This document shows, in pieces, positions 31,475 to 42,971 of a stretch of DNA of 64,000 nt. The stretch spans positions 1-64,000 of the forward strand of contig NZ_CP024636.1 of the NCBI RefSeq assembly GCF_009728735.1. The letters run 5' to 3'. The notes under the pieces were generated by a model. It was given only the letters and a program-made list of their open reading frames with translations. It had not been told where the DNA came from and ran no database searches. The position numbers and the translations under genes were made by a program. Position 1 is the stretch's first letter. Each line of letters opens with the position of its first letter. The DNA is from Pantoea phytobeneficialis (GTDB lineage Bacteria > Pseudomonadota > Gammaproteobacteria > Enterobacterales > Enterobacteriaceae).

Positions 31475-33905
31475 TTTTTTCTCCACAAGTAACCGGTACA
31501 TCAATCATTTCATTAGTTAATACGGGTTTGAAACTGTCTTTTTCAATGTGACAAACCATGTCACCGATGTTGCTTATTTTTGCTGCACGGTTTTCCAATC
31601 TTTCCGCTTGTTTATGACTTAGCATCAGTACGTTTTCGTCAATGGTATAACCGAGCGATTCGGCATGGTCATCTAACACTTTTGCCCCGTAAGGAATGTT
31701 TTTTTCTCCAGCTATTAATCTGACAAGATAAAATCTCTCCTGGTCTGACTTATAATCAATCTTGCCAACTGCGCCGCGTTTGATGGTGATTTCCTGGTGC
31801 GGATTTTTTACATAAGCACCATCTGGTAGCGTTTTGGTGACAATATCTATTGAATTGATTTTTCCTTCATGCAATTGAGGGGCCACAGCCAAGCCATCAT
31901 AATTGGTAATAACACTTGAGGTTGGAGTGGCGATGCTGGTATATCCTTTTACACCGGTGTCAATGATTGCAAAGCTATCCTGAATATGAGCGGATGAAAA
32001 AATAAACTTGTCACCCGTGCTAACCAGTGCACCAGATACGTTGGTGGAGTAATTTCTACTGCCGTTATTTGATCCAGAGTAGTAAGCGCTGGTGTTGGCA
32101 TAAGGCGTACGCCAGAATGCGTTAACATTATGATTAGTGCTATTGCTTACACCAGTATAGCGATCAATACCCGCACCAATATTCAAATTGTCGGTGATGT
32201 TCTGATCTACACGCGAACCAAAAATGGTATTGCGCTGATAATTATTCACATAAGAGGAGAATGCACCTTTTTTACTAAAAGCGTTGAACGGTATCCGCAG
32301 GTTTACTGTTGTTGACCAGTTATTATCTTTGCTGTTGCCGTGTACCCAGCCATAAGCCATATTCGCGCTGAGAGTATAATAACGAGCATTATAAGAACCG
32401 AAGACGCTCAGAGTATTCCGATCCGGTGAATTATAAAAAGAATAACGCGACAGAGATAAACCGCTGCCAATTGAGCCAAATGGCTTACTCACACCCGCAG
32501 AGATGGCATAACGGGTATTGTAATTCTGATATGAATAGTCTTTCTCAAAGGTTTGCTGACTTTCACCCAGATCACGATAATAGTTGCTCTGCCAACTCAA
32601 AGAGAGCCAGGGTGAGGCATTAGCCAGCTGCGAAGCAACGTTCGCGCTAACTTTCTCGCCGATATCTCCGTTCTTGCCGCTTCTGGCCAGACTGACGTTC
32701 ATATCCCCGGTAGTATTGAAGGGAATCCAGTTAGCCCCCACACCCGCCCCAATCCCCGTGTAGCGGGTGGCAATCATCATCCCGGCAAAAGGTTGCAAGT
32801 AGTGATAAAACGGCAGTCGATACTCACCACCCAATACCGGGACATTTCCCATACCGCGTGAGGGATCGGTTTGTCCGGCAAATAATGAAAAGCGACTTGC
32901 CATCTGTTGGCTGACATTAAATGCGGCTTTCGGGATGGTGACACGCTGTTCGCCGCCGTTATTTTCCCGAACCACCAATTCCGCGTCGGCAAAAGCGGTA
33001 TACAGTGGCACTGCTTCAAACAAGAAGGGACCGGCAGGAACCGGGCGACTGAAGATCACGCGTCCCTGTTGGTAAACCTCTACCTGAGCATAGCCCGATG
33101 CAATGCCACTGACGGTAACGGTGGTATCACCGTCTTTCAGACCTGCGTTGTTATTGAGTGTAAAACCGGTGATCTGACCGGCACCAAACAACGAGTTACC
33201 CACCCCCATGTAACCGGCACGTACGCGATAAATATCCGCCATATCTGTTTCCAGATAGGCACTACTCAGGTCGTAATTGCTGTAGGTAAGTCCGCTGGAC
33301 GACTGGGAGCTGCGGTAAGAAAAGTGGGTACGCAACAAGACATTCTTGATATTCGCCCCCCAACTCATCAGTGCAGTCAGGGTATCGGTATGCGAAAATC
33401 GGTTGTTACTGCGATTGCCACTGAGGTTGTAATTGAGGAACGTACCAAACCCACCTGACTGTGTATTCGAGAACGCTGAGTTTTTTTCCAGATAGAAGTC
33501 AGGGATATTGATATTTAATGCATTTTTATTGCGCTCATAATTCATTCTTAGCTGTGAGACTTTAGTTGTATCAAGGCAATCAGAGTTTGGTGTCACCACA
33601 AAGGCATTAGGTTTTAAGCCAAACTCCTGCAATAAAGCACTATTCAGACATGCATTGCCATTGCTATCAAATTCAATTTCTTTAACGCCTGTGTATTTAC
33701 CATTTAAATAAACACCGGTTTGCATTTTACCTTGTGGCTTAATTGCTTGTTCAATCGCACTTTTTGCCTGTTCATTACTAAGCCCTAACGATTCAATAAC
33801 GTTGGCATTAAAATTTAGCGTTTCTGCCATAGTGGAAGAACAGGAAAAAGCAATGGCTGCTGCCAGTAGCGAGAGTTTCTTATTGCAATTAACTAATCGT
33901 TCCAT
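31461..33905 (-). CDS. Outer-membrane fimbrial usher
   Basis: An 814-residue chaperone-usher assembly platform. Signal peptide about 1-27. The N-terminal periplasmic domain (about 28-160) has a Cys pair (NACLNS, NSDCLD). The beta-barrel contains the plug segment around AGPFLFEAVPLYTAFADAELVV. The C-terminal domains hold another Cys pair (DMVCHIE, PVTCGE). Many Asn/Ser/Tyr-rich beta strands fit the barrel. Slightly short compared with typical 830-870-residue ushers but apparently complete. It heads a locus with a chaperone and one DUF1120 subunit. No major pilin gene is seen upstream or downstream. Confidence 0.92.
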   Translation of the reverse strand: MERLVNCNKKLSLLAAAIAFSCSSTMAETLNFNANVIESLGLSNEQAKSAIEQAIKPQGKMQTGVYLNGKYTGVKEIEFDSNGNACLNSALLQEFGLKPNAFVVTPNSDCLDTTKVSQLRMNYERNKNALNINIPDFYLEKNSAFSNTQSGGFGTFLNYNLSGNRSNNRFSHTDTLTALMSWGANIKNVLLRTHFSYRSSQSSSGLTYSNYDLSSAYLETDMADIYRVRAGYMGVGNSLFGAGQITGFTLNNNAGLKDGDTTVTVSGIASGYAQVEVYQQGRVIFSRPVPAGPFLFEAVPLYTAFADAELVVRENNGGEQRVTIPKAAFNVSQQMASRFSLFAGQTDPSRGMGNVPVLGGEYRLPFYHYLQPFAGMMIATRYTGIGAGVGANWIPFNTTGDMNVSLARSGKNGDIGEKVSANVASQLANASPWLSLSWQSNYYRDLGESQQTFEKDYSYQNYNTRYAISAGVSKPFGSIGSGLSLSRYSFYNSPDRNTLSVFGSYNARYYTLSANMAYGWVHGNSKDNNWSTTVNLRIPFNAFSKKGAFSSYVNNYQRNTIFGSRVDQNITDNLNIGAGIDRYTGVSNSTNHNVNAFWRTPYANTSAYYSGSNNGSRNYSTNVSGALVSTGDKFIFSSAHIQDSFAIIDTGVKGYTSIATPTSSVITNYDGLAVAPQLHEGKINSIDIVTKTLPDGAYVKNPHQEITIKRGAVGKIDYKSDQERFYLVRLIAGEKNIPYGAKVLDDHAESLGYTIDENVLMLSHKQAERLENRAAKISNIGDMVCHIEKDSFKPVLTNEMIDVPVTCGEKNDTY

Positions 33906-34247
33906 GAGTAGAATTTCCAGGGTGAAAAATACATCAAATATTTATGACCCTGAGGGATAGATTACTCGGCAACGGAGTTTCGTGGTCATTAAATGAATTT
34001 CAAACTTGTACGACGACTATTCTGGATTTCTTTCAGCCTGGGAATGATTAATGACCGTCATTTTCATGATTTGATCATGATTATATTAAAACCATACAAA
34101 ACAATTGGTTGTGTTTTATTTTTTTTGTGATTTCATCTTTTTTTGTAATTGTGAAATGCTGAAAAAATCAGACCTGATAAGAATTCAGGAAGTTATGATG
34201 AGGTTTTTCTGAAGGTGGGGTGCAACGTTCACATGCAAAGGGGGGTT
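33906..34247. other. AT-rich intergenic region upstream of the usher
   Basis: About 340 bp, markedly AT-rich with several T-runs around 34118-34150. It must contain the promoter of the minus-strand fimbrial locus. No gene, pilin fragment or invertible-element inverted repeats were recognised. Confidence 0.5.
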
Positions 34248-34315
34248 GTAGCGGCGCGATTTATCGCGCGGGTTTAAATAAACCCTGACAAGAGCGCGAT
34301 AAATCGCACCGCTAC
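34248..34315. repeat. Dispersed palindromic repeat, two-arm form (68 bp)
   Basis: Begins GTAGCGGCGCGATTTATCGC and ends GCGCGATAAATCGCACCGCTAC, with GGGTTTAAATAAACCC in the middle. It lies 11 bp beyond the stop of the eamA-like gene and marks the 3' border of the biosynthetic operon. Confidence 0.88.
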
Positions 34316-34326
34316 AGAGGGAACTA

Positions 34327-35232
34327 TTACGTTCTTACCAGAAATCGCTGACTCACCATTCCGCCAAATACATTAATCAGCAGGCCGAGAATAATCACTG
34401 TAGCGCCTAACATTTGCTGCATCGACAGGGTTTCTCCCAAAATCAATGCTGCGCTGAGAATCCCCACCACCGGCACCAGTAACGAGAGTGGAGCGATGCG
34501 CCAGGTTTCATAGCGACTGAGCAAATTGCCCCAAATGGCATAACCGACAATGGTGGCGACAAACGCCAGGTAGATCAGTGCCAACACGGTTTGCAGTGAA
34601 ATATGCACCAGACTGCTGACTATCGCCGCCTCACCCTCGAACCACCATGAGCAGGCGAAGAACGGCAGCATAGGCACCAGCGCACTCCACACCACCAGCG
34701 ACATTACCGGGACTTTGCTGTTACGCAGGATAATCTTGTTGGTGATATTGCCTAACCCCCACGACAGTGCTGCGGCCAGCGTCAGCATCATCGTGGTCAG
34801 CGTAATCCCTGCGGTGGTTTGTCCCTCCATACCGGCAGTGGCAAGCATAAACATACCGAGGGTGGCGACTACGATCCCGGCGATATGGTTCCAGCGCAGC
34901 TTCTCAGCCAGCAATAGCGCGCCGAGCAGCAGGGTAAAAAATGCCTGAGCCTGCACCACCAGCGACGCCAGCCCGGCGGGCATGCCAAGTTTGATGGCAA
35001 GAAACAGAAATGCAAACTGACCAAAGCTGATGGTCATGCCGTACACCACCAGCCAGCGTAGCGGGATGTTTGGTCGTTTAACAAAGAAGATCGCCGGGAA
35101 TGCCACCAGAGTAAAACGCAGTCCCGCCAGTAAAAACGGGGGCATGCCATGCAGCCCCAACTTAATCACCACAAAATTGACACCCCAGGCCAGCACGACA
35201 CACAGGGCTAATAATAGATCTTTAACTGACAT
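34327..35232 (-). CDS. eamA: EamA-like amino acid/metabolite exporter
   Basis: A 301-residue inner-membrane exporter with ten hydrophobic helices in two EamA (DMT) repeats. Long stretches match E. coli EamA (YdeD), the O-acetylserine/cysteine exporter: WG-NFVVIK-GLH-MPP, RF-LVAFPAIFFV-RP, GMPAGLASLV-QAQAFFT and YLAFVATIVGY-IWG-LL-RYETWR-APLSLLVPVVG. The ATG at 35230-35232 follows GAAGGA; upstream in-frame extension is unlikely. It is the last gene of a six-gene operon with ligase and amidotransferase genes, so export of the cluster product is a reasonable inference. Confidence 0.88.
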   Translation of the reverse strand: MSVKDLLLALCVVLAWGVNFVVIKLGLHGMPPFLLAGLRFTLVAFPAIFFVKRPNIPLRWLVVYGMTISFGQFAFLFLAIKLGMPAGLASLVVQAQAFFTLLLGALLLAEKLRWNHIAGIVVATLGMFMLATAGMEGQTTAGITLTTMMLTLAAALSWGLGNITNKIILRNSKVPVMSLVVWSALVPMLPFFACSWWFEGEAAIVSSLVHISLQTVLALIYLAFVATIVGYAIWGNLLSRYETWRIAPLSLLVPVVGILSAALILGETLSMQQMLGATVIILGLLINVFGGMVSQRFLVRT

Positions 35233-35252
35233 AACAATTCCTTCTGCCGCGA

Positions 35253-35753
35253 TCAGGCGGTCGCCGTCACGGGGGTGGCGATTTCTGCACAACATTCATC
35301 GCCGACTACACGAAAATAATCTTCCACATTCAGCGCTACCGAGCGCTCCAGTTCACCTGCGTTGAACCACAGGGTACCGACATCGCGCAGACGCGTATCG
35401 ACGCGCAGCGCCAGCCGGTCATCAAAACTAAAGGGGGGCACTGCTCCCATCACGCACTGCGTCAGTTCCTGGGCTTTTTCCGGTGCGGCGAAGCTCGATT
35501 TCTTGCCACCAATGGCACGCGCCGCGCTTTTGAAGTTGATTTTGCAATCACCGGGGACAATCGCCAGCAGATAACGGGATTCCGCCCCTTCTGGCATGGT
35601 CACCTCCAGCACCATCGCCTTCGCGGCCTGATTCAGATCATTGCCGCGGATCTCGCTGATGACATCGGTCTGACCGATGGCCTCATGCTCGACCACACGG
35701 AAATTCGCCTGATGTTGCTCCAACTGCGCGATCAATTTTTCATAGGTTGTCAT
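35253..35753 (-). CDS. YbaK/ProX-type aminoacyl-tRNA deacylase
   Basis: A 166-residue single-domain protein of the YbaK/EbsC family, which hydrolyses mischarged aminoacyl-tRNA in trans (for example Cys-tRNA-Pro or Ala-tRNA-Pro). The fold is visible as FRVVEHEAIGQT, NQAAKAMVLEV, YLLAIVPGDCKINFK-AAR (with the family Lys) and VMGAVPPFSF. I chose the ATG ending at 35753, which is 6 nt from GAGGAG; the ATG at 35759 abuts the ribosome site. It lies 20 nt before eamA and 29 nt after the oxygenase gene. Placement within a biosynthetic operon suggests self-protection (inference). Confidence 0.85.
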   Translation of the reverse strand: MTTYEKLIAQLEQHQANFRVVEHEAIGQTDVISEIRGNDLNQAAKAMVLEVTMPEGAESRYLLAIVPGDCKINFKSAARAIGGKKSSFAAPEKAQELTQCVMGAVPPFSFDDRLALRVDTRLRDVGTLWFNAGELERSVALNVEDYFRVVGDECCAEIATPVTATA

Positions 35754-35782
35754 CTTCATCTCCTCGTATGACGGGCCACGGG

Positions 35783-36583
35783 TTAACTCCAGGCAATCGC
35801 GTGCTTCATCTTTTTGTCGGTCAGACCAAAGAAGAAGCCCATGGTGATGCGCGTATCGCCTTCCACCCGATCAATTTCATGATAAAAAGCAGGATTAAAC
35901 AGATAGATATCGCCGCTGCGCGGTGAAAACTCACAAGTCTCGCAATATTCAACAACGCCACTCTGGTAGCCCAGTTCGCCAGGTGTTTTGAAACGCTCAT
36001 CCACCGGCTGCCATTTCTTATTAAAGATGCGCAGTTCGCCACCGGCGTTGCACTCTTGCAGGCACACCACGCAACTCAGTTGATGCAAAATGTCGGTGAC
36101 CGCCAGGCCACTGCCTGCCGCATCGCGCACGATATTATCGTTGTGCAATGGGTTGGCGACGCCGTTGGCATGGAAACGCACGATCGAACCCGCATAGTCG
36201 CCATGCCGGGGATCAGTGGCGGTTTTCAGGCTCTCCAGCCGTAAGGCGTGTTTCACCCAGTTGTAAACCTGGTCACGCAGGCAGTGCAGCGAGGGCGGCA
36301 AAGCGGGCTGGATGTCGCGTAATTCAGTGAAATAGTTTTCCGGCGCAGCGGTGTGCTTCGCCAGATAGGGGCCAAGGGTGGTGAGTGCACCATTGGGATA
36401 GTGCGACACCCGCACCTTCTCGCGGCAAAGTTGCAGGTCATCCACTGCCGCTTCACGGACTTCCGGGGTCAGGAAATTACGCAGTACCAGCAGCGGTACG
36501 CGCGCAGTCACAATGTCATCCAGCCAGGTACTTTCCACAAACATTTTGGGGTTAATCACGCGTATCTGATTGAAAATGGCCAT
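35783..36583 (-). CDS. 2-oxoglutarate/Fe(II)-dependent oxygenase
   Basis: A 266-residue double-stranded beta-helix oxygenase. The metal triad H-x-D...H is His147, Asp149 (LHND) and His235 (FYHEID); Arg245 (DTRITMGFF) fits the 2-oxoglutarate carboxylate site. The strand GGELRIFNKKW and the closing GDIYLFNPAFYHEI are typical of prolyl-4-hydroxylase-like and related small-molecule hydroxylases. The ATG at 36581-36583 is 9 nt from CGGAG; an upstream GTG abuts that site. It lies 5 nt after the GATase gene. It probably hydroxylates the cluster substrate or product. Confidence 0.85.
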   Translation of the reverse strand: MAIFNQIRVINPKMFVESTWLDDIVTARVPLLVLRNFLTPEVREAAVDDLQLCREKVRVSHYPNGALTTLGPYLAKHTAAPENYFTELRDIQPALPPSLHCLRDQVYNWVKHALRLESLKTATDPRHGDYAGSIVRFHANGVANPLHNDNIVRDAAGSGLAVTDILHQLSCVVCLQECNAGGELRIFNKKWQPVDERFKTPGELGYQSGVVEYCETCEFSPRSGDIYLFNPAFYHEIDRVEGDTRITMGFFFGLTDKKMKHAIAWS

Positions 36584-36588
36584 GCTGT

Positions 36589-37296
36589 TCACTCCGACAA
36601 AGGAATTTCATGAAGTTCATGGTTGCTCATACGACGCCATTCCGACGCCGTGCCCAGTGCTGCAATGGGTTCAGAAGAGATAAAGGTGCGGTCGTGCTGT
36701 TTGTAGTGATGCAGGGTGAAATAATCGGGATAAGGGGTATCTGTGGGATGCCATTGCCATGCCCAGGCTTTCTCGCGGGTGACAAAAATCGCGTTGGCCG
36801 CACTGCCGCCAGGTGCTACCTGTGCCATTTTGTCGCGCAGATAATCGCGGGTGAAATCAGCCGGGGTCGCGCGGTCAACGATGTATTCAAGGTATTCCGC
36901 CGAATCGAAGCGTGACTCCGCCATGCCAAGCTGCTGGTAAACCGTTGGTAAAAAGCCGTTGTGCATCATGTACCACTGCGTCTGGCCACTGGTGCGCCAC
37001 AGCGGATGCGAAAATTCGATACCGTGGTTTTTGCTCAAGGTGGCATGGCGCACATGCACCGCCAGAAAACGGCCTCGCAGGCGATCGACATCAATACCCG
37101 GTAGCGCATCGGCAAACATGCCGGTGCCGTGTAGCGTGCGAATTTTTCCCTGCTCGATCCACAGCATTCCCCAGCCGTTTGGGTGCTGCTTGATTGGGCC
37201 ATCATGGGTCGCGGTTTCACCACAACTCATGGCGCGTGCCGCCTCCAGTACCGCAGCGGCATCAAACTGACCGTGCGCCAGAATCATTCTGCACAT
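36589..37296 (-). CDS. Stand-alone class II glutamine amidotransferase
   Basis: A 235-residue Ntn-hydrolase glutaminase that should release ammonia from glutamine. Catalytic Cys2 directly follows the start Met (MCRMILAHG). HPNGWGM (38-44), HVRHAT (81-86, substrate Arg83) and MMHNG with Asn113/Gly114 (oxyanion hole) are the class II signatures. It lacks a synthetase domain, unlike asparagine synthetase B or GlmS. It overlaps the ATP-grasp gene by 13 nt and precedes the oxygenase gene by 5 nt. The likely ammonia acceptor is the PP-loop or ATP-grasp enzyme of the same operon. Confidence 0.88.
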   Translation of the reverse strand: MCRMILAHGQFDAAAVLEAARAMSCGETATHDGPIKQHPNGWGMLWIEQGKIRTLHGTGMFADALPGIDVDRLRGRFLAVHVRHATLSKNHGIEFSHPLWRTSGQTQWYMMHNGFLPTVYQQLGMAESRFDSAEYLEYIVDRATPADFTRDYLRDKMAQVAPGGSAANAIFVTREKAWAWQWHPTDTPYPDYFTLHHYKQHDRTFISSEPIAALGTASEWRRMSNHELHEIPLSE

Positions 37297-38561
37297 AGCA
37301 AATCCCCCCGCGTGGTAAAAGACGGAACCGCAAGAATCTGATGGAAGGTCGCCAGAATGTCGTCGCGGCTGTTACCCGGCAGACGGAAGGTGGCGAGGAT
37401 GCCCGCATGGCGGGTCAAATCGGCATACAATGAGGATCGCGGTGATACCTCCAGCGCGGGCAGATTGAGCGGTGGCAGTAGCTGGCCGCGCTGCTGTTGC
37501 GCGATCCAGCTTTCTGCCTGGTGATATTGCAGCGGCTGGCGCAAACGCAGACGACCTACCGCCGACGCCTGTTGATTGAAATGCAGCTCAGGCATACCGT
37601 GTCCTGCTTCGATCTGAAATGCCACGTCGGCCCAGTTGATGCCGGTCACTTCCTCAACCAGGTTCACCACACCCATGCCCGACAGGCGGAAACCCATTTC
37701 GAGAAAATGCGGTTCGCCATTGACCACGATGAAATCGATATGGAAAGCGCCCTGACGGTAGCCAAAAGTTTCACAACAGAAACTCATCAGGCTGGCAAAG
37801 GCCGCAGGCAGTTGCTGTGCGGCCATCGCCACATGGCCGGATTCGTAAAAGCTGATGCTGCCATCGGCGTCGCTGTGATGCTCAATCACCTTCTGGCAAC
37901 AGGTCAGGGCTACCGCGTGGCCGTTATCCACCACGCCCTGTAATGAATATTCGTCGCCGCACAGCCAGCTCTCGACGATATAGCCCGAGAACCCACGTCC
38001 ACCGTAATTCATGGTATCGACCAGTTTGTTAATCACGGTATCCAGTTGGCTGGCTTCCTCGACCATCCAGACACCGAGGCCGCCGCCGCCATCGACCGGC
38101 TTGATCACGCAGGGGTAGAGCAGCGCTTCCCGCGCGTCGCGGATACTGAGCGGCGAGGCAAAAAAGCGAAACTCTGGTTGGGGGAAACGCGGCCAGGCCT
38201 TACGCAGCGCCATGCGTTGCGCGTATTTGTCCGGCGGGATAAAGCAGGGGCCGGCATCCGGGCCAGCCAGTATCTCACGCACCCGACCGGCGCTGGCGTT
38301 ATAGGCTTCAAAGCCCGCCAGCACCACCTGTGGATGCTCCAGCAGCCCGGCATGCAGACACGCCTGTAACACATCCCAGGGGTTTTCCGGTCGATCCAGC
38401 CGCACGATCAGATCGAACGGCAAGGTCTGGCTGAGGGACTGGTAATCGACAAAATCCCCCATCTCCGCCAGAACAGTGAAATAACCTTCGCGCTTTGCCA
38501 CCGCGCAGTACGGATTTTGCCCGTCGCGGGTGGCACCAATCTGCAGGAAAATCTTTCTCAT
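37284..38561 (-). CDS. ATP-grasp ligase
   Basis: A 425-residue cytoplasmic ATP-grasp enzyme, which activates a carboxylate as acyl phosphate and joins it to an amine or ammonia. Visible are the ATP-binding CVIKPVDGGGGLGV (151-164), VESWLCGDEYSLQGVV, and the Mg site FHIDFIVVNGEPHFLEMGFRLSGMG. The last motif reads E-M-G-F-R where many members have E-x-N-x-R, as in some amino-acid ligases. An ATP-grasp N-terminal domain (about 1-100) and a C-terminal domain (about 325-425) flank it. It sits 17 nt after the PP-loop gene and overlaps the GATase gene. Substrates unknown. Confidence 0.87.
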   Translation of the reverse strand: MRKIFLQIGATRDGQNPYCAVAKREGYFTVLAEMGDFVDYQSLSQTLPFDLIVRLDRPENPWDVLQACLHAGLLEHPQVVLAGFEAYNASAGRVREILAGPDAGPCFIPPDKYAQRMALRKAWPRFPQPEFRFFASPLSIRDAREALLYPCVIKPVDGGGGLGVWMVEEASQLDTVINKLVDTMNYGGRGFSGYIVESWLCGDEYSLQGVVDNGHAVALTCCQKVIEHHSDADGSISFYESGHVAMAAQQLPAAFASLMSFCCETFGYRQGAFHIDFIVVNGEPHFLEMGFRLSGMGVVNLVEEVTGINWADVAFQIEAGHGMPELHFNQQASAVGRLRLRQPLQYHQAESWIAQQQRGQLLPPLNLPALEVSPRSSLYADLTRHAGILATFRLPGNSRDDILATFHQILAVPSFTTRGDLLCAE

Positions 38562-38578
38562 CGGTTGGCCTTACCGGG

Positions 38579-40045
38579 TTAACGCCCGGAAATCACTTCT
38601 GTGACGATGTCCTGCAGGACACCATTGTTAACCTGGATCACCGCTTTGTGCGGGTCGAAGCGCAGCACGCGCGACAGAGCATCCTGCTGCTGGTTATCCA
38701 GCAATGAACTCACCTGCGCGCTTTGCCAGCAGTGACGCATCTGCGCGATGGTCAGGCCGGAAAGTTGCTCCAGTTGTTGTGCCAACAGCAGATGGTTGCT
38801 GTTGCCTTCCAGCAAGGCTCGTACCGCCGCTTCTTCCGGCGCGTCCGGCAACTGTTGCAGCCAGGCTTTCAGTTGGCGGCCACCGGCGATAAACGGCGAA
38901 TAAATCATGCACACCAGCTGGGTTTCATCGAGACCAAATGCCTGTTCGGCAAACTGCGTTGCCCGCTGCCGCGCAATCGCAATCGCGGCATCGTCCTGAT
39001 AACGTGCCGCCATTTCGCTGATCAGCTGTGGTGGAAAATCTTTTTGCTGCATCAACCCCAGCGCAAAGCGTGCATATTCGCGCACGCCTTCGGCGTAGCT
39101 ACGCTGCAACAGGGTTTCTGCGCGCAGGCCGCGAATATGGGCCATTAATGTCGGGTTGCCGCAGTCAGATTCCGAGAAGCTGAACATCAGTTCATCGAAG
39201 CGGAACTGCATAAACTCAGTGAGCAGCGTCCAGTGCGCCCCCGCTTCATACGCGGTGTCCTGATAGATATTGAAGAACAGTGGATCGCGCTCAAGCTGCC
39301 AGGTGATGCGGTGCGCGGGGGTAACCTGATCGACACCGTAGACATCGCTAAAGTAGCGTTGCGCCACGCCATCCAGGGTTTGCAGAAAGCCGCTAAAGCC
39401 GCGTGATTTATCCGCCACCGGTGCGTTAAACAGCCGGGAGAGGTGGCGCGCCCAGGCGAGGTAAGCGGTTTGTTCCTGTGGCGAATCGCCGGTGATGATC
39501 ATATCCACCCCGCCATCGTAGTGCGCCGCGAGGCCAAAGGAGTTCACCATGCTGAGGTTGCAGGCGTTGCAAAAGGTGGAGCGTGCATCGGCGCGGAAGC
39601 GGTGGCCGTTCATCAGCACATCGCTGCGATTCTGCTGGCGTACCGCTTCCGGCATCGGCAAATAACGGGAAAAAGGGCGAATCTGTAATCCGTCGGTCAC
39701 CAGACATTCGGTAAAGTCGTCATGGTGGATATGCAGCGCGCGATAAACGCGATCGATATTCTCCATCACGCTGTCGTTCATTGCCGCGTGGCGGTTGGTG
39801 CTGATGCGGAGCTGAAAGGTGCTCCCCCGCTGTTGCCAGATCAACCCCTGGATGTAGCGGACATACGCCACCATATAGCTGCTGTCTTTGCCGCCGCCAT
39901 AGGCGAGCAGCACGCGGTTGTTTTCGGGGTGGTGCGTATCGGGTAGCGCGGCGAGCAAACGGCGGGAACAAGCCTGAGCAGATGCGAGAATGGCGGGGGA
40001 TAGATATCCTTCAATTTCTCTCATCATGGTGGACAGATTATTCAT
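38579..40045 (-). CDS. PP-loop ATPase with CxxC motif, amidotransferase-like
   Basis: A 488-residue adenine-nucleotide alpha-hydrolase-fold protein. The PP-loop is YGGGKDSS (49-56), which activates substrates by adenylation. A CNAC pair (Cys159, Cys162) precedes TGDSPQEQTAYLAW (185-198). This layout recalls N-acetyl-sugar amidotransferases (WbpG/PseA) and N-type ATP pyrophosphatases that use ammonia from a partner glutaminase. The roughly 250-residue helical C-terminal part is not recognised. It is first in the six-gene operon. AGGA lies about 10 nt before the ATG. The partner glutaminase is probably the class II GATase two genes downstream. Confidence 0.8.
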   Translation of the reverse strand: MNNLSTMMREIEGYLSPAILASAQACSRRLLAALPDTHHPENNRVLLAYGGGKDSSYMVAYVRYIQGLIWQQRGSTFQLRISTNRHAAMNDSVMENIDRVYRALHIHHDDFTECLVTDGLQIRPFSRYLPMPEAVRQQNRSDVLMNGHRFRADARSTFCNACNLSMVNSFGLAAHYDGGVDMIITGDSPQEQTAYLAWARHLSRLFNAPVADKSRGFSGFLQTLDGVAQRYFSDVYGVDQVTPAHRITWQLERDPLFFNIYQDTAYEAGAHWTLLTEFMQFRFDELMFSFSESDCGNPTLMAHIRGLRAETLLQRSYAEGVREYARFALGLMQQKDFPPQLISEMAARYQDDAAIAIARQRATQFAEQAFGLDETQLVCMIYSPFIAGGRQLKAWLQQLPDAPEEAAVRALLEGNSNHLLLAQQLEQLSGLTIAQMRHCWQSAQVSSLLDNQQQDALSRVLRFDPHKAVIQVNNGVLQDIVTEVISGR

Positions 40046-40272
40046 TTTTCACTTTTTCCTTTGGCTAATAAAATCGCTATTGCCTTGAACACGGCAACAT
40101 TGCGGGTAAAGGGCCACGAAGGTGCTTGGGAATGAATGTCTCAGTCTTCATGCTGCGCGGCTGGGTGCCAGCCACCGATACGCAAGGTGATTGATTTAAC
40201 AGATGCAGCCTAAACTACTTTGAATGTAATCTGATGGATACGCACAGATCAGCACGATATGGGGTGGAACAG
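40046..40272. promoter_or_regulatory. Divergent promoter region of the PP-loop operon and MocR gene
   Basis: A 227-bp gap between divergent starts. Two inverted repeats could be operators for the MocR protein: GGCTGG-GTG-CCAGCC (40159-40173) and TTGCC-N8-GGCAA (40080-40097). Neither matches a motif I know, and no clear -35/-10 pair stands out. Confidence 0.4.
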
Positions 40273-41727
40273 ATGGCGGGTGAGACGGAAGAACAGGAGA
40301 GTCAGAGCAGTCGTTACCGTCAGATAGCAGAACAGATCAAACAGGCGATTCACAGCGGATCGCTGCCGCCAGACAGTCGCTTACCCTCGGTGCGCACGCT
40401 GGCTACGCAGTACCGAGTCAGTATGACCACCGCGCTCAAAACATTACGCACACTTGAGGATGAACACTATGCGGTGGCACGTCCCAAGTCCGGCTTTTTT
40501 GTGGCACCACGTAAGGCCGACAAAAAGTTGCCGTTGGTCAGCCATGAACAACCGCGTGAAATCGCACCACTGGATGAGCAGACCGAACTGCATCTGGCGA
40601 TGGTGGGTTCGGATTGTCGCGTAAGGCTGGATCTGGCAAACGGCGATATCTCGCTGTATCCGGTAAAGAAAATTGGTCTGCTGATGCGTCAGATGGGGTA
40701 CAGCAAACCGGCGCTGCTCGGGAATACCGTTAAGGGTACTGGCTATGCACCATTGAAGGCGGAAATTGCCCGCCGTGCGGTGGATTATGGCTGCAACATC
40801 AACGCTGATGACATCCTGATCACCAACGGTTGTATTGAGGCGATCTCGCTGTCGCTGCGCGCCACCACTCGTCCCGGTGATATCGTGGCGGTGGAATCAC
40901 CCTGTTATTTTGTGTTGTTGCAGATGCTGCACAACCTCAATCTACGGGTGATTGAAGTGGAGGCGGGCGCGGAAGGCTACGTCAACGTTGAGAAACTGAC
41001 GACGTTGTTCCAGCGCAAAGCGGTGCAGGCGTATCTCAGCCTCAACAACATCAATAACCCGCTTGGCAAAAGCATCCCCAACGAACAAAAGGCCTACATT
41101 GCACGCCAGGCCGACGAAAACGATGTGGTGATCATTGAGGATGATATCTTCGGTGATACCGCCTTTGGTGAACGCCGTCCGTTCCCGATGCGCGCCTTCA
41201 GCCCGAACGTCATTCTGTGCAGCGGCTTCTCGAAAACCGTGGCGCCAGGTATCCGTATTGGCTGGGTGCACAGCGTCAATTACATGCGTAAAATCGCCTC
41301 GCTGAAATACACCTCGACGATGGGGACTTCGGTGCTGTCGCAGGCGGCGATTGCTGAGCTGCTGCGTAATGGCGGCTACGATGCCCATCTGCGTAAGCTG
41401 CGGCGTGAACTGGCGAATCAGATTCACCATATGCGCCAGGCGGTGCTGCGTTATTTCCCGGCAGGAACGCGCGTGTCTGATCCCGAAGGCGGCTACGTAC
41501 TGTGGGTGGAGATGCCGATGCAGGCGTTAAACGTGCGTGCGCTGTTTCTCAAAGCACGCAATGCCGGGATTGGCATTGCGCCGGGGCATATTTTTGCCAC
41601 CGACCACCGCTATGATCACTGCTTCCGACTGAACGCCGGATTTGGCTGGAATGAGGAAGTGGAGCAGGCAATTCGACAACTGGCACAGTGGTGCCAGCTG
41701 TCATTGCTGGAAGCGAAGCAGGATTAG
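40273..41727 (+). CDS. MocR/GntR-family regulator with aminotransferase-like domain
   Basis: A 484-residue regulator. Residues about 15-85 are a GntR winged helix (SRYRQIAEQIKQAIHSGSLPPDSRLPSVRTLA). The rest is a fold-type I aminotransferase domain with PLP Lys in CSGFSKTVAPGIRIGW, used for sensing rather than catalysis. The ATG at 40273 has GGGGTGG 5 nt upstream; a longer start at 40234 lacks a ribosome site. It is divergent from the PP-loop operon, so it probably controls it, perhaps responding to a PLP-amino acid adduct. Its stop overlaps the convergent avtA stop by 4 nt. Confidence 0.87.
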   Translation: MAGETEEQESQSSRYRQIAEQIKQAIHSGSLPPDSRLPSVRTLATQYRVSMTTALKTLRTLEDEHYAVARPKSGFFVAPRKADKKLPLVSHEQPREIAPLDEQTELHLAMVGSDCRVRLDLANGDISLYPVKKIGLLMRQMGYSKPALLGNTVKGTGYAPLKAEIARRAVDYGCNINADDILITNGCIEAISLSLRATTRPGDIVAVESPCYFVLLQMLHNLNLRVIEVEAGAEGYVNVEKLTTLFQRKAVQAYLSLNNINNPLGKSIPNEQKAYIARQADENDVVIIEDDIFGDTAFGERRPFPMRAFSPNVILCSGFSKTVAPGIRIGWVHSVNYMRKIASLKYTSTMGTSVLSQAAIAELLRNGGYDAHLRKLRRELANQIHHMRQAVLRYFPAGTRVSDPEGGYVLWVEMPMQALNVRALFLKARNAGIGIAPGHIFATDHRYDHCFRLNAGFGWNEEVEQAIRQLAQWCQLSLLEAKQD

Positions 41728-42971
41728 GCGCGCCAGGCGTCTTCGATCTCTTGCGCCAGAATCTGCACCGCGTGTTCAATGCTGGCTGCGTCTGGCACAT
41801 AATTCATGCGCATACATTGATGGGTATGCGGCCACTCCTGTTCCAGGCCCGGGAAGAAGAAATGCCCCGGTACCATCAGTACGCCGCGCGCCTTCAGCCG
41901 TTGATATAACGCTTCGGTGCTGATCGGCAGGTCACGGAACCACAGCCAGAGGAAAATCGCCCCTTCTGGTTTGTGGATCAGGCAGCGATCTTCCGGCAAA
42001 TAGCGGCGCAGGATGGCGATCGTCTCGCTAACCTTATGCTGATAAAACGGCTTGATCACCTGTTCTGACAGGCGCAATAAATCGCCGCGCGCAATCATTT
42101 CGTTCGCCATCGCCGGGCCGATGCTCCCCGGTGCCAGGCTGATGATGCCGTTCATATTGCCGATCGCGCTGATGGTGTTTTCATCGGCAACGATAATGCC
42201 GCAACGCGCCCCCGGCAGGCCGAGTTTCGACAGGCTCATGCACAGAATAATGTTGGGATTCCACAGTGGGCGCGCTTCGCTGAAGATAATGCCGGGGAAG
42301 GGCACGCCGTAGGCGTTATCGATCAACAGCGGAACTTCATGTTGCTGCGCCAGCGCATCCAGTTGTAACAGCTCGTCATCGGTGATGACATTGCCGGTGG
42401 GGTTGGTCGGACGCGAAACGCAAATCAGACCGATATCATCATTCAGCGGCAGGTGGTCAAAATCAACGTGATACTTGAACTGGCCTTCCGGCAGCAATTC
42501 AATGTTCGGCTTGGCAGAAACAAACAGCCCTTCCTCCAGCCCGGCGTCGGCGTAACCGAGATACTCCGGTGCCAGCGGGAACAGTACGCGTTTTTTGCTG
42601 CCGTCGGCGCGGTGTCCGGCGAACAGATTAAACAGATAGAAAAATGCGCTCTGGCTGCCGTTGGTCAGGGCGATATTTTGCGCCGTCAGCGGCCAGCCAA
42701 ATTCGTCGCGTAACATCTTCGCCAGCGCATCAAGCAGCAACGCTTTGCCGCGTGGGCCGTCGTAGTTGCACAGCGCTTCGCTCAGTTTGCCTTCCTGATG
42801 CATCTGCTGCAAAAGCTGGTGGAAATAGTCATTCATTTCCGGGATTTGTGCCGGATTACCGCCGCCGAGCATGATGGTGCCGGGGGTACGCAATCCTTCC
42901 CCCATATCTTCCATCAGACGTGAGATGCCGGAATGTTGCGTAAATTTGTCGCCGAACTGAGAAAAAGACAT
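41724..42971 (-). CDS. avtA: Valine-pyruvate aminotransferase AvtA
   Basis: PLP-dependent transaminase C interconverting valine plus pyruvate and 2-ketoisovalerate plus alanine, 415 residues. It closely matches E. coli AvtA, including GIMLGGGNPAQIPEM-like, LTNGSQSAFFYLFNLFAG, SRPTNPTGNVITD, DNAYGVPFPGIIFSEARPLWNP and the PLP Lys in CMSLSKLGLPG. It is convergent with the MocR gene and downstream of ghrB in the same orientation after a 93-nt gap that has a hairpin. It is probably independent of the neighbouring biosynthetic cluster. Confidence 0.97.
   Translation of the reverse strand: MSFSQFGDKFTQHSGISRLMEDMGEGLRTPGTIMLGGGNPAQIPEMNDYFHQLLQQMHQEGKLSEALCNYDGPRGKALLLDALAKMLRDEFGWPLTAQNIALTNGSQSAFFYLFNLFAGHRADGSKKRVLFPLAPEYLGYADAGLEEGLFVSAKPNIELLPEGQFKYHVDFDHLPLNDDIGLICVSRPTNPTGNVITDDELLQLDALAQQHEVPLLIDNAYGVPFPGIIFSEARPLWNPNIILCMSLSKLGLPGARCGIIVADENTISAIGNMNGIISLAPGSIGPAMANEMIARGDLLRLSEQVIKPFYQHKVSETIAILRRYLPEDRCLIHKPEGAIFLWLWFRDLPISTEALYQRLKARGVLMVPGHFFFPGLEQEWPHTHQCMRMNYVPDAASIEHAVQILAQEIEDAWRA

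Follow-up and report, generated by a model that had tools for sequence, protein, structure and literature searches.

The 64,000-nucleotide (nt) stretch at the start of contig NZ_CP024636.1 of Pantoea phytobeneficialis (hereafter the window) carries a compact locus of six minus-strand genes, here called A to F, which is headed by a putative PP-loop ATPase (A) and faced by the gene of a divergent MocR-type regulator (R). The features of the locus are listed in Table 1. All six open reading frames (ORFs) were intact in an ORF check of the window. The genes are as tightly packed as the initial annotation had claimed: A and B are separated by 17 nt, B and C overlap by 13 nt, and the gaps between C and D, D and E, and E and F are 5, 23 and 20 nt, so that no gap within the operon exceeds 23 nt. 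If D begins at the GTG at 36592, the C-D gap becomes a 4-nt overlap. The listed start of F (35295) lies upstream of the likely ATG (35232). Domain scans confirmed the gene identities that had been proposed for B to F and those of R, which has a GntR and an aminotransferase I/II domain; A was assigned to the PP-loop ATPases by its motif and by profile comparison.

Table 1. Genes and other features of the A-F locus of P. phytobeneficialis (window coordinates).
Feature	Position	Strand	Basis or remarks
A, 488-amino-acid (aa) PP-loop ATPase	38579..40045	-	GGGKDSS 50-56, C159/C162/C295, TGDS 185-188, C-terminal Gly-Arg
B, 425-aa ATP-grasp carboxylate-amine ligase	37284..38561	-	domain and solved-structure match
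C, 235-aa stand-alone class II glutamine amidotransferase/amidohydrolase	36589..37296	-	domain and alignment
D, WelO5/HilA-type Fe(II)/2-oxoglutarate (2OG) oxygenase	35783..36583 (alternative GTG start 36592)	-	domain and alignment
E, YbaK/ProX-fold aminoacyl-tRNA deacylase	35253..35759	-	domain and alignment
F, EamA (DMT) exporter	34327..35232	-	domain; nearest O-acetylserine/cysteine exporter model
R, MocR-type regulator (GntR and aminotransferase domains)	40273 (or 40234)..41727	+	domain
Divergent control region, A to R	40046..40272	.	alignment of 22 loci
avtA, valine--pyruvate transaminase	41724..42971	-	neighbour behind R; not counted in the pathway

Protein A had no match among the Pfam and NCBIfam models. 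Scoring of 8000 candidates gave 465 matches to A, and a profile was made from an alignment of 40 sequences, 39 of them picked from these matches and one being the window copy. Searched against the PDB, this profile found nothing significant (best E-value 0.72). A Pfam scan of the 40 members returned 11 families, the strongest match (3e-7) being an N-terminal calcium-binding repeat in one member; because each family was confined to one or two members, no family covers A. The motif GGGKDSS was invariant in 40/40 sequences. The A profile was also compared with E. coli K-12 proteins: eight stretches holding ten known PP-loop enzymes supplied 147 ORFs with a minimum length of 150 aa. The six ORFs ranked highest by score were all PP-loop enzymes, namely ttcA (probability 60%), cysD (36%), tilS (20%), mnmA (8%), guaA (5%) and thiI (2%), a result with a chance of about 2e-8 by our own arithmetic. 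When profile was set against profile, A matched TtcA (21 sequences) with a probability of 77% across 26 columns; for TilS (31 sequences) it was 51% across 60. Both alignments lie at the PP-loop. On this motif and these profile comparisons, A is a member of the PP-loop ATP pyrophosphatase superfamily and is nearest to TtcA. No Asn_synthase domain was seen in A by Pfam, and asnB ranked ninth among the 147 ORFs with a probability of 0.94%.

Like TtcA, A has a CxxC and a further invariant cysteine. C159, C162 and C295 were found in 40/40 A sequences, and C122, C125 and C213 in 21/21 TtcA sequences. Counted from the first CxxC cysteine, the next conserved glycine lies at a distance of 27 in A (38/40 sequences measurable) and of 26 in 18/21 TtcA sequences; the other three TtcA values came from another GH, and for A the script itself gives 26, measured to the T just before the glycine. 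Four distant A paralogs from one gammaproteobacterial genus, possibly Pseudomonas (26-30% identity), have all lost C162 and C295 and had the PP-loop lysine replaced; C159 is kept in three of the four, and the PP-loop aspartate is replaced in three. This joint loss is expected if the cysteines serve the ATP-dependent reaction. The lysine, the aspartate and all three cysteines are kept in an A relative from Methylobacter (42% identity). In TtuA, three cysteines hold a [4Fe-4S] cluster, and TtcA requires such a cluster too (PMC6225789).

The C-terminal Gly-Arg of A, invariant in the 40 relatives, is kept as SGR or TGR in the four degenerate paralogs (L039, L040, L041 and L042). These adjoin a gene with a MocR-type match and are possibly pseudoenzyme partners of a regulator.

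B has an ATP-grasp domain (8e-15), and its best match of solved structure was the L-amino acid ligase BL00235 (1.9e-11). C has a class II glutamine amidotransferase domain (3.7e-6). In this class Cys2, an Arg, an Asn-Gly pair and an Asp have catalytic roles; C2, R83, HNG 112-114 and D131 of C are conserved among the 31 sequences aligned from 102 matches, in which record P0331 is without the N-terminus. Searched against solved structures, the C profile found 1te5 (an unnamed protein) and the amidohydrolase EgtC, and C itself falls below the cut-off of the EgtC equivalog TIGR03442 (21.1 vs 218.65 bits). The structural matches leave room for C as a hydrolase of the EgtC kind, and the role of ammonia donor that the initial annotation saw in C is therefore not established.

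D matched the WelO5 2OG oxygenase family PF22814 (5.2e-19; 69.3 bits against a gathering cut-off of 27) and is far under the cut-off of the HilA equivalog NF041274 (30.2 vs 500 bits). Numbered on the 269-aa ORF starting at 36592, its residues H150-x-D152, H238 and R248 are invariant in the 26 sequences aligned from 116 matches, and the intact HxD indicates a hydroxylase-type triad. In the carrier-free halogenases of the WelO5 family, the carboxylate ligand of the HxD (aspartate) is replaced by a small residue; D was rejected as a halogenase because H150-x-D152 is intact in all 26 aligned sequences. A second, weak WelO5-family match in the same genome (G000 contig 2, 196390-196542; 23.7 bits, below the cut-off) is perhaps a Hil-type dioxygenase. 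E has the aminoacyl-tRNA editing/YbaK fold (PF04073, 6.5e-22), and the lysine of its AAKAMVL, a residue known from YbaK together with its role, is invariant in 21 aligned sequences. E is nearest YbaK, and the Cys-tRNA(Pro) deacylase equivalog TIGR00011 was not reached (57.4 vs 153.25 bits). F belongs to EamA (PF00892), the nearest model being the O-acetylserine/cysteine exporter NF008523 (398.7 bits, below the cut-off of 472).

A was found in 51/61 Pantoea genomes, four of these matches being partial or broken, and so marks a core Pantoea locus. It was found in 1/197 order-wide and 1/274 class-wide genomes, the own genome in each case, and in 7/398 phylum-wide genomes: the own one, one other Pantoea and five with a distant paralog. 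D was found in 6/149 family genomes: besides the own genome, two from other genera had a match at 79%, and in three more the match was weak (28-30%). All six genes have matches in the same order and on the same strand in 23 of 25 fetched loci, among them L002, in essence the record of the window itself, and the fragmentary L020; the exceptions are L023, without a C match, and L026, which is fragmentary and without an A match. An avtA ortholog, whole or partial, neighbours 24/25 loci and ghrB 22/25. A record of Pantoea sp. AS-PWVM4 holds a protein 100% identical to A. Over five comparisons, the ratio of non-synonymous to synonymous change (pN/pS) of A to F stayed within 0.02-0.16 for the three closest and rose to as much as 0.33 for the most distant one, in which synonymous sites are saturated; avtA, where measured, gave 0.05-0.12, mostly less than A, B, C and E in the same comparison. 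A to F are under purifying selection, which together with the order conserved in 23/25 loci shows that the operon is not a chance arrangement. The locus is a core trait of Pantoea and not a variable antibiotic island.

Three of the loci, L020, L023 and L026, have a fragmentary operon, which seems dispensable there; two are titled as stink-bug symbionts (of Euschistus servus and Plautia stali) and one as Candidatus Pantoea persica. Two Pantoea-type loci are filed under Enterobacter (L005, E. ludwigii EnVs2, A 89%; L009, E. cancerogenus M004, A 88%) and probably come from mislabelled Pantoea.

Beyond Pantoea, co-occurrence was assessed by contigs of more than 5 kb common to the match lists, recognised by their size, with one list shifted by 1-50 bases as the control. 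Among the matches listed, A and D shared 16 contigs, A and C 16, and C and D 17; with shifting the average was 0.09-0.14 and the highest count 1 or 2. Ten contigs were common to A, C and D. Sharing of a megabase-sized contig is not itself proof of adjacency, and locus tags are more telling. Genes on shared contigs also occur in Serratia, Paramixta, Pseudomonas, Pseudoalteromonas (A and D) and Nostoc (A and C). In Paramixta the tags are PMPD1_0023 (D), 0024 (C) and 0026 (A); in [Pantoea] beijingensis ED28_03290 (A), 03300 (C) and 03305 (D); in Serratia liquefaciens 003546 (A) and 003543 (D). The tags of Pseudoalteromonas luteoviolacea, 13325 (A) and 13340 (D), leave space for B and C, and those of Nostoc NIES4103, 54280 (A) and 54300 (C), leave space for B. 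Such tag spacing, and a Streptomyces record (P0235) in which an ATP-grasp domain is fused to D, possibly an assembly or deletion product, suggest that B stands beside A outside the fetched loci. E and F were seen only in Pantoea-type and Hafnia loci, apart from an F homologue in Methylobacter (see below). By protein name, A relatives are scattered (Nostoc, Myxococcus, Pseudoalteromonas), and E. coli gave no near match. Conservation as a unit, which the initial annotation had put forward as a check, holds for the ordered loci; far from Pantoea, co-occurrence was seen for A, C and D, with B by tag spacing only.

Other relatives of single genes lie in other settings. Beside a C homologue in Embleya, nothing matched A, B, D, E and F, and only a 58-residue MocR match was seen. 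A D relative on a Streptomyces plasmid adjoins an ATP-grasp cluster for a ribosomally synthesised and post-translationally modified peptide (RiPP), and ATP-grasp matches on Deinococcus and Pseudoalteromonas plasmids, the two looked at of 59 records, lie amid other gene sets.

A different arrangement was found on a Methylobacter plasmid (L033:10327-17093), where an A homologue lies between the genes for glutamate mutase S and E. The order is an asparagine-synthetase-like gene (NF005054 score exactly at the cut-off), glutamate mutase S, A, glutamate mutase E, an EamA exporter 45% identical to F, and a MocR-like aminotransferase-domain protein in which the DNA-binding domain was not detected. The core common to this cluster and the Pantoea loci is A, EamA and the MocR-like protein. 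Glutamate mutase yields 3-methylaspartate, and the association of A with this enzyme indicates an amino-acid substrate. The probable substrate of the Methylobacter A is therefore an acidic amino acid or the amide of one, and the cluster appears to be another uncharacterised amino-acid pathway.

We propose, with a probability of about one half, that A, B, C and D form a small-molecule biosynthetic module whose product, a modified amino acid or dipeptide, is exported, and that A adenylates a carbonyl whose oxygen is replaced by sulfur (favoured) or nitrogen. The reactions, the iron-sulfur (Fe-S) cluster, the substrate and the product of this proposal are all predicted from sequence. Like TtcA and TtuA, A would adenylate a carbonyl or amide oxygen on an amino-acid-derived substrate, and a cluster on C159, C162 and C295 would deliver sulfide that displaces AMP, giving a thioamide or thioacid; alternatively, ammonia from C would displace AMP. 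B would join a carboxylate and an amine as an amino-acid ligase, D would hydroxylate the amino-acid part, and C would supply ammonia or, like EgtC, trim a glutamyl group. E might clear product or precursor mis-charged on tRNA, the product being harmful if charged, and F, a relative of a cysteine exporter, would pump the product out. E and F would thus protect the producer, and R would sense an amino compound through pyridoxal phosphate. For the nucleophile of A, sulfur is a tentative first choice and ammonia a somewhat weaker one, the remainder falling to other roles. The conserved ligase-type operon with a divergent MocR gene, as described in the initial annotation, is borne out. The assembly of an amide- or amidine-bearing compound that it had suggested is unproven, and A is nearer to the TtcA-type three-cysteine enzymes than to the asparagine-synthetase type, which makes sulfur chemistry at least as likely as amide or amidine formation.

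Several observations weigh against this proposal. The absolute probabilities in the E. coli ranking are modest, and four of the ten PP-loop enzymes ranked low (asnB 9, queC 11, nadE 21 and cysH 116). Outside the PP-loop no segment of A aligned with TtcA, the alignment having 26 columns in total. The PP-loop-to-CxxC distance is 109 (once 110) in A against 74-75 in TtcA, and the third cysteine is farther away, at +136 to +142 against about +88/+91. There is no cysteine desulfurase or sulfur carrier among the six genes of the operon, and C would be easier to account for with ammonia as the nucleophile. In the Methylobacter cluster B, C and D are without a match, as is E; beyond the fetched loci, B is placed beside A by tag spacing and the fusion record P0235 only. 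Conservation as a core locus throughout a genus would also be unusual for an antibiotic.

The strongest alternative, and the one closest to the initial annotation, is a split glutamine amidotransferase, in which C would free ammonia that A or B uses to place an amide, amidine or nitrile group on a hydroxylated amino acid; sulfur would play no part, and the cysteines of A would hold structural zinc. The class II catalytic positions kept in C, the presence of A and C on shared contigs (Nostoc included) and the Methylobacter variant, which has no C match and an asparagine-synthetase-like gene instead, all speak for it. We nevertheless consider it rather doubtful, since ttcA heads the ranking by the A profile, with asnB in ninth and nadE in twenty-first place, and the sole named solved relative in the C profile search, EgtC, is an amidohydrolase.

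A role in primary metabolism or stress, such as the making of a housekeeping metabolite (osmolyte, metal ligand or vitamin-like compound) or the repair or detoxification of an amino-acid analogue, is improbable. It would suit a locus that is core in Pantoea (51/61), has avtA and ghrB as usual neighbours and is under purifying selection, although most comparisons show avtA to be more constrained than A, B, C and E. Against it, the genes are rare outside Pantoea among the genomes sampled (A in 1/197 order genomes; D at 79% in two other-genus genomes of 149), scattered in Nostoc, Myxococcus and Pseudoalteromonas, and fragmentary in L020, L023 and L026, and the exporter and editing genes suit specialised metabolism. 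A translation-quality system, in which A would modify tRNA as TtcA does and E would edit it, might explain the TtcA-like cysteines and the tRNA-editing fold but is very improbable, because a TtcA 87% identical to the E. coli protein is already encoded in the genome, the MocR protein and B, C, D and F have no place in such a system, and an A relative lies beside glutamate mutase.

The gene set resembles, and differs from, several known systems. Dapdiamide shows that ATP-grasp ligase chemistry without a nonribosomal peptide synthetase exists in Pantoea, but B scores 36.1 against a DdaF cut-off of 840. The tabtoxin-type pathway unites a PP-loop synthetase, an ATP-grasp ligase and a 2OG oxygenase; its PP-loop enzyme is asparagine-synthetase-like, whereas A is not recognised by the asparagine-synthetase Pfam family. 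The tRNA thiolases TtcA and TtuA share with A the PP-loop, the CxxC, the further invariant cysteine and a near-equal CxxC-to-G spacing, but A has 488 aa against 311 in TtcA, no similarity was found outside the PP-loop, and the context of A is one of small-molecule enzymes. A precedent for small-molecule thiolation is YcfA, a PP-loop protein required for 6-thioguanine (PMC6225789). The 6-thioguanine systems ycf of Erwinia amylovora and tgs of Staphylococcus likewise use a PP-loop/TtuA-like protein on a small molecule, and tgs, one operon, also has a small predicted exporter (PMC6225789, PMC7994395). Unlike these, the Pantoea operon has no NUDIX or desulfurase gene among its six, and the six tgs genes, as described in the text available, lack the ATP-grasp, class II amidotransferase, 2OG oxygenase and YbaK proteins that the Pantoea operon has (PMC7994395).

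The Hil operon of Pantoea ananatis, for hydroxylation of L-isoleucine, has a related dioxygenase, accompanied in some versions by the ATP-grasp-type ligase HilD and an exporter of the RhtA family; HilA hydroxylates isoleucine, and a dipeptide antibiotic was proposed by the authors (PMC3684760). HilB and HilC are absent from the six-gene operon, and the Hil gene list given in that source is without a PP-loop protein or class II amidotransferase (PMC3684760). Operons of aminoacyl-tRNA synthetase (AAtRS)-like genes include ATP-grasp ligases, an asparagine-synthetase-type PP-loop ATPase, class II amidotransferases and 2OG oxygenases among their members, but they centre on AAtRS-like proteins, which are absent from the six Pantoea genes, and their PP-loop enzyme is asparagine-synthetase-like (PMC2922099). 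A known Pantoea antibiotic cluster is unlikely on the indirect ground of rarity: in a survey of 12 clusters, the Pantoea rows in the part of the table consulted reach at most about 1.2% of Pantoea genomes (PMC11350110), against 51/61 genomes here. The terms ATP-grasp and amidotransferase do not occur in the survey, which is no test, since dapdiamide is among the clusters it covers. The gene sets of PNP-1 (PMC4010436) and 675/PNP-4 (PMC7744662), as far as those texts give them, also differ.

A RiPP was weakly considered since some A homologues are named 'PqqD family' in UniRef, but no PqqD match was found in the 40 members and no operon gap exceeds 23 nt. A defence system was rejected, the only match among A to D being a generic 2OG one. 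The A family and the gene set were not found described in the literature searched, as far as its accessible text goes, which agrees with the initial annotation, where the combination was not recognised as a named cluster; the style of the pathway, a ligase-based small natural product, is known.

In the divergent control region, about 70 bp beside R are conserved across most of the 22 aligned loci, L019 and L022 being divergent. The ATG at 40273 is the probable start of R, rather than 40234, and is preceded in most aligned loci by a conserved, ribosome-binding-like GGGTGG. An Rfam scan of 33900-41800 gave no match at gathering cut-offs, a promoter scan found 2 where shuffled sequence averaged 5.0, and a terminator scan found 11 against an average of 8.4. 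A palindrome, GTAGCGGCGCGATTTATCGCGC, resembling repetitive extragenic palindromic elements, has 13 copies in the window with at most 2 mismatches and 0 in shuffles; an inverted pair lies directly downstream of F (34248-34315), and it occurs at 11 other places in the window.

Protein A, whose family counts several hundred sequences and has neither a Pfam or NCBIfam model nor a match in the PDB, heads a gene set that is nearly fixed in a plant-associated genus. A further, more speculative step is that A founds an undescribed Fe-S PP-loop family that thiolates or aminates free amino-acid derivatives, that A, B, C and D might make a new class of sulfur-bearing, hydroxylated amino acids or dipeptides in Pantoea, cyanobacteria and others, and that E might confer self-immunity in Pantoea and its relatives; we hold this to be possible but doubtful. 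The proposal makes two predictions, a small-molecule reaction that depends on an Fe-S cluster and self-protection at the level of tRNA. If an amino-acid-based metabolite is made, most Pantoea species would make it, which would bear on the plant and biocontrol biology of the genus.

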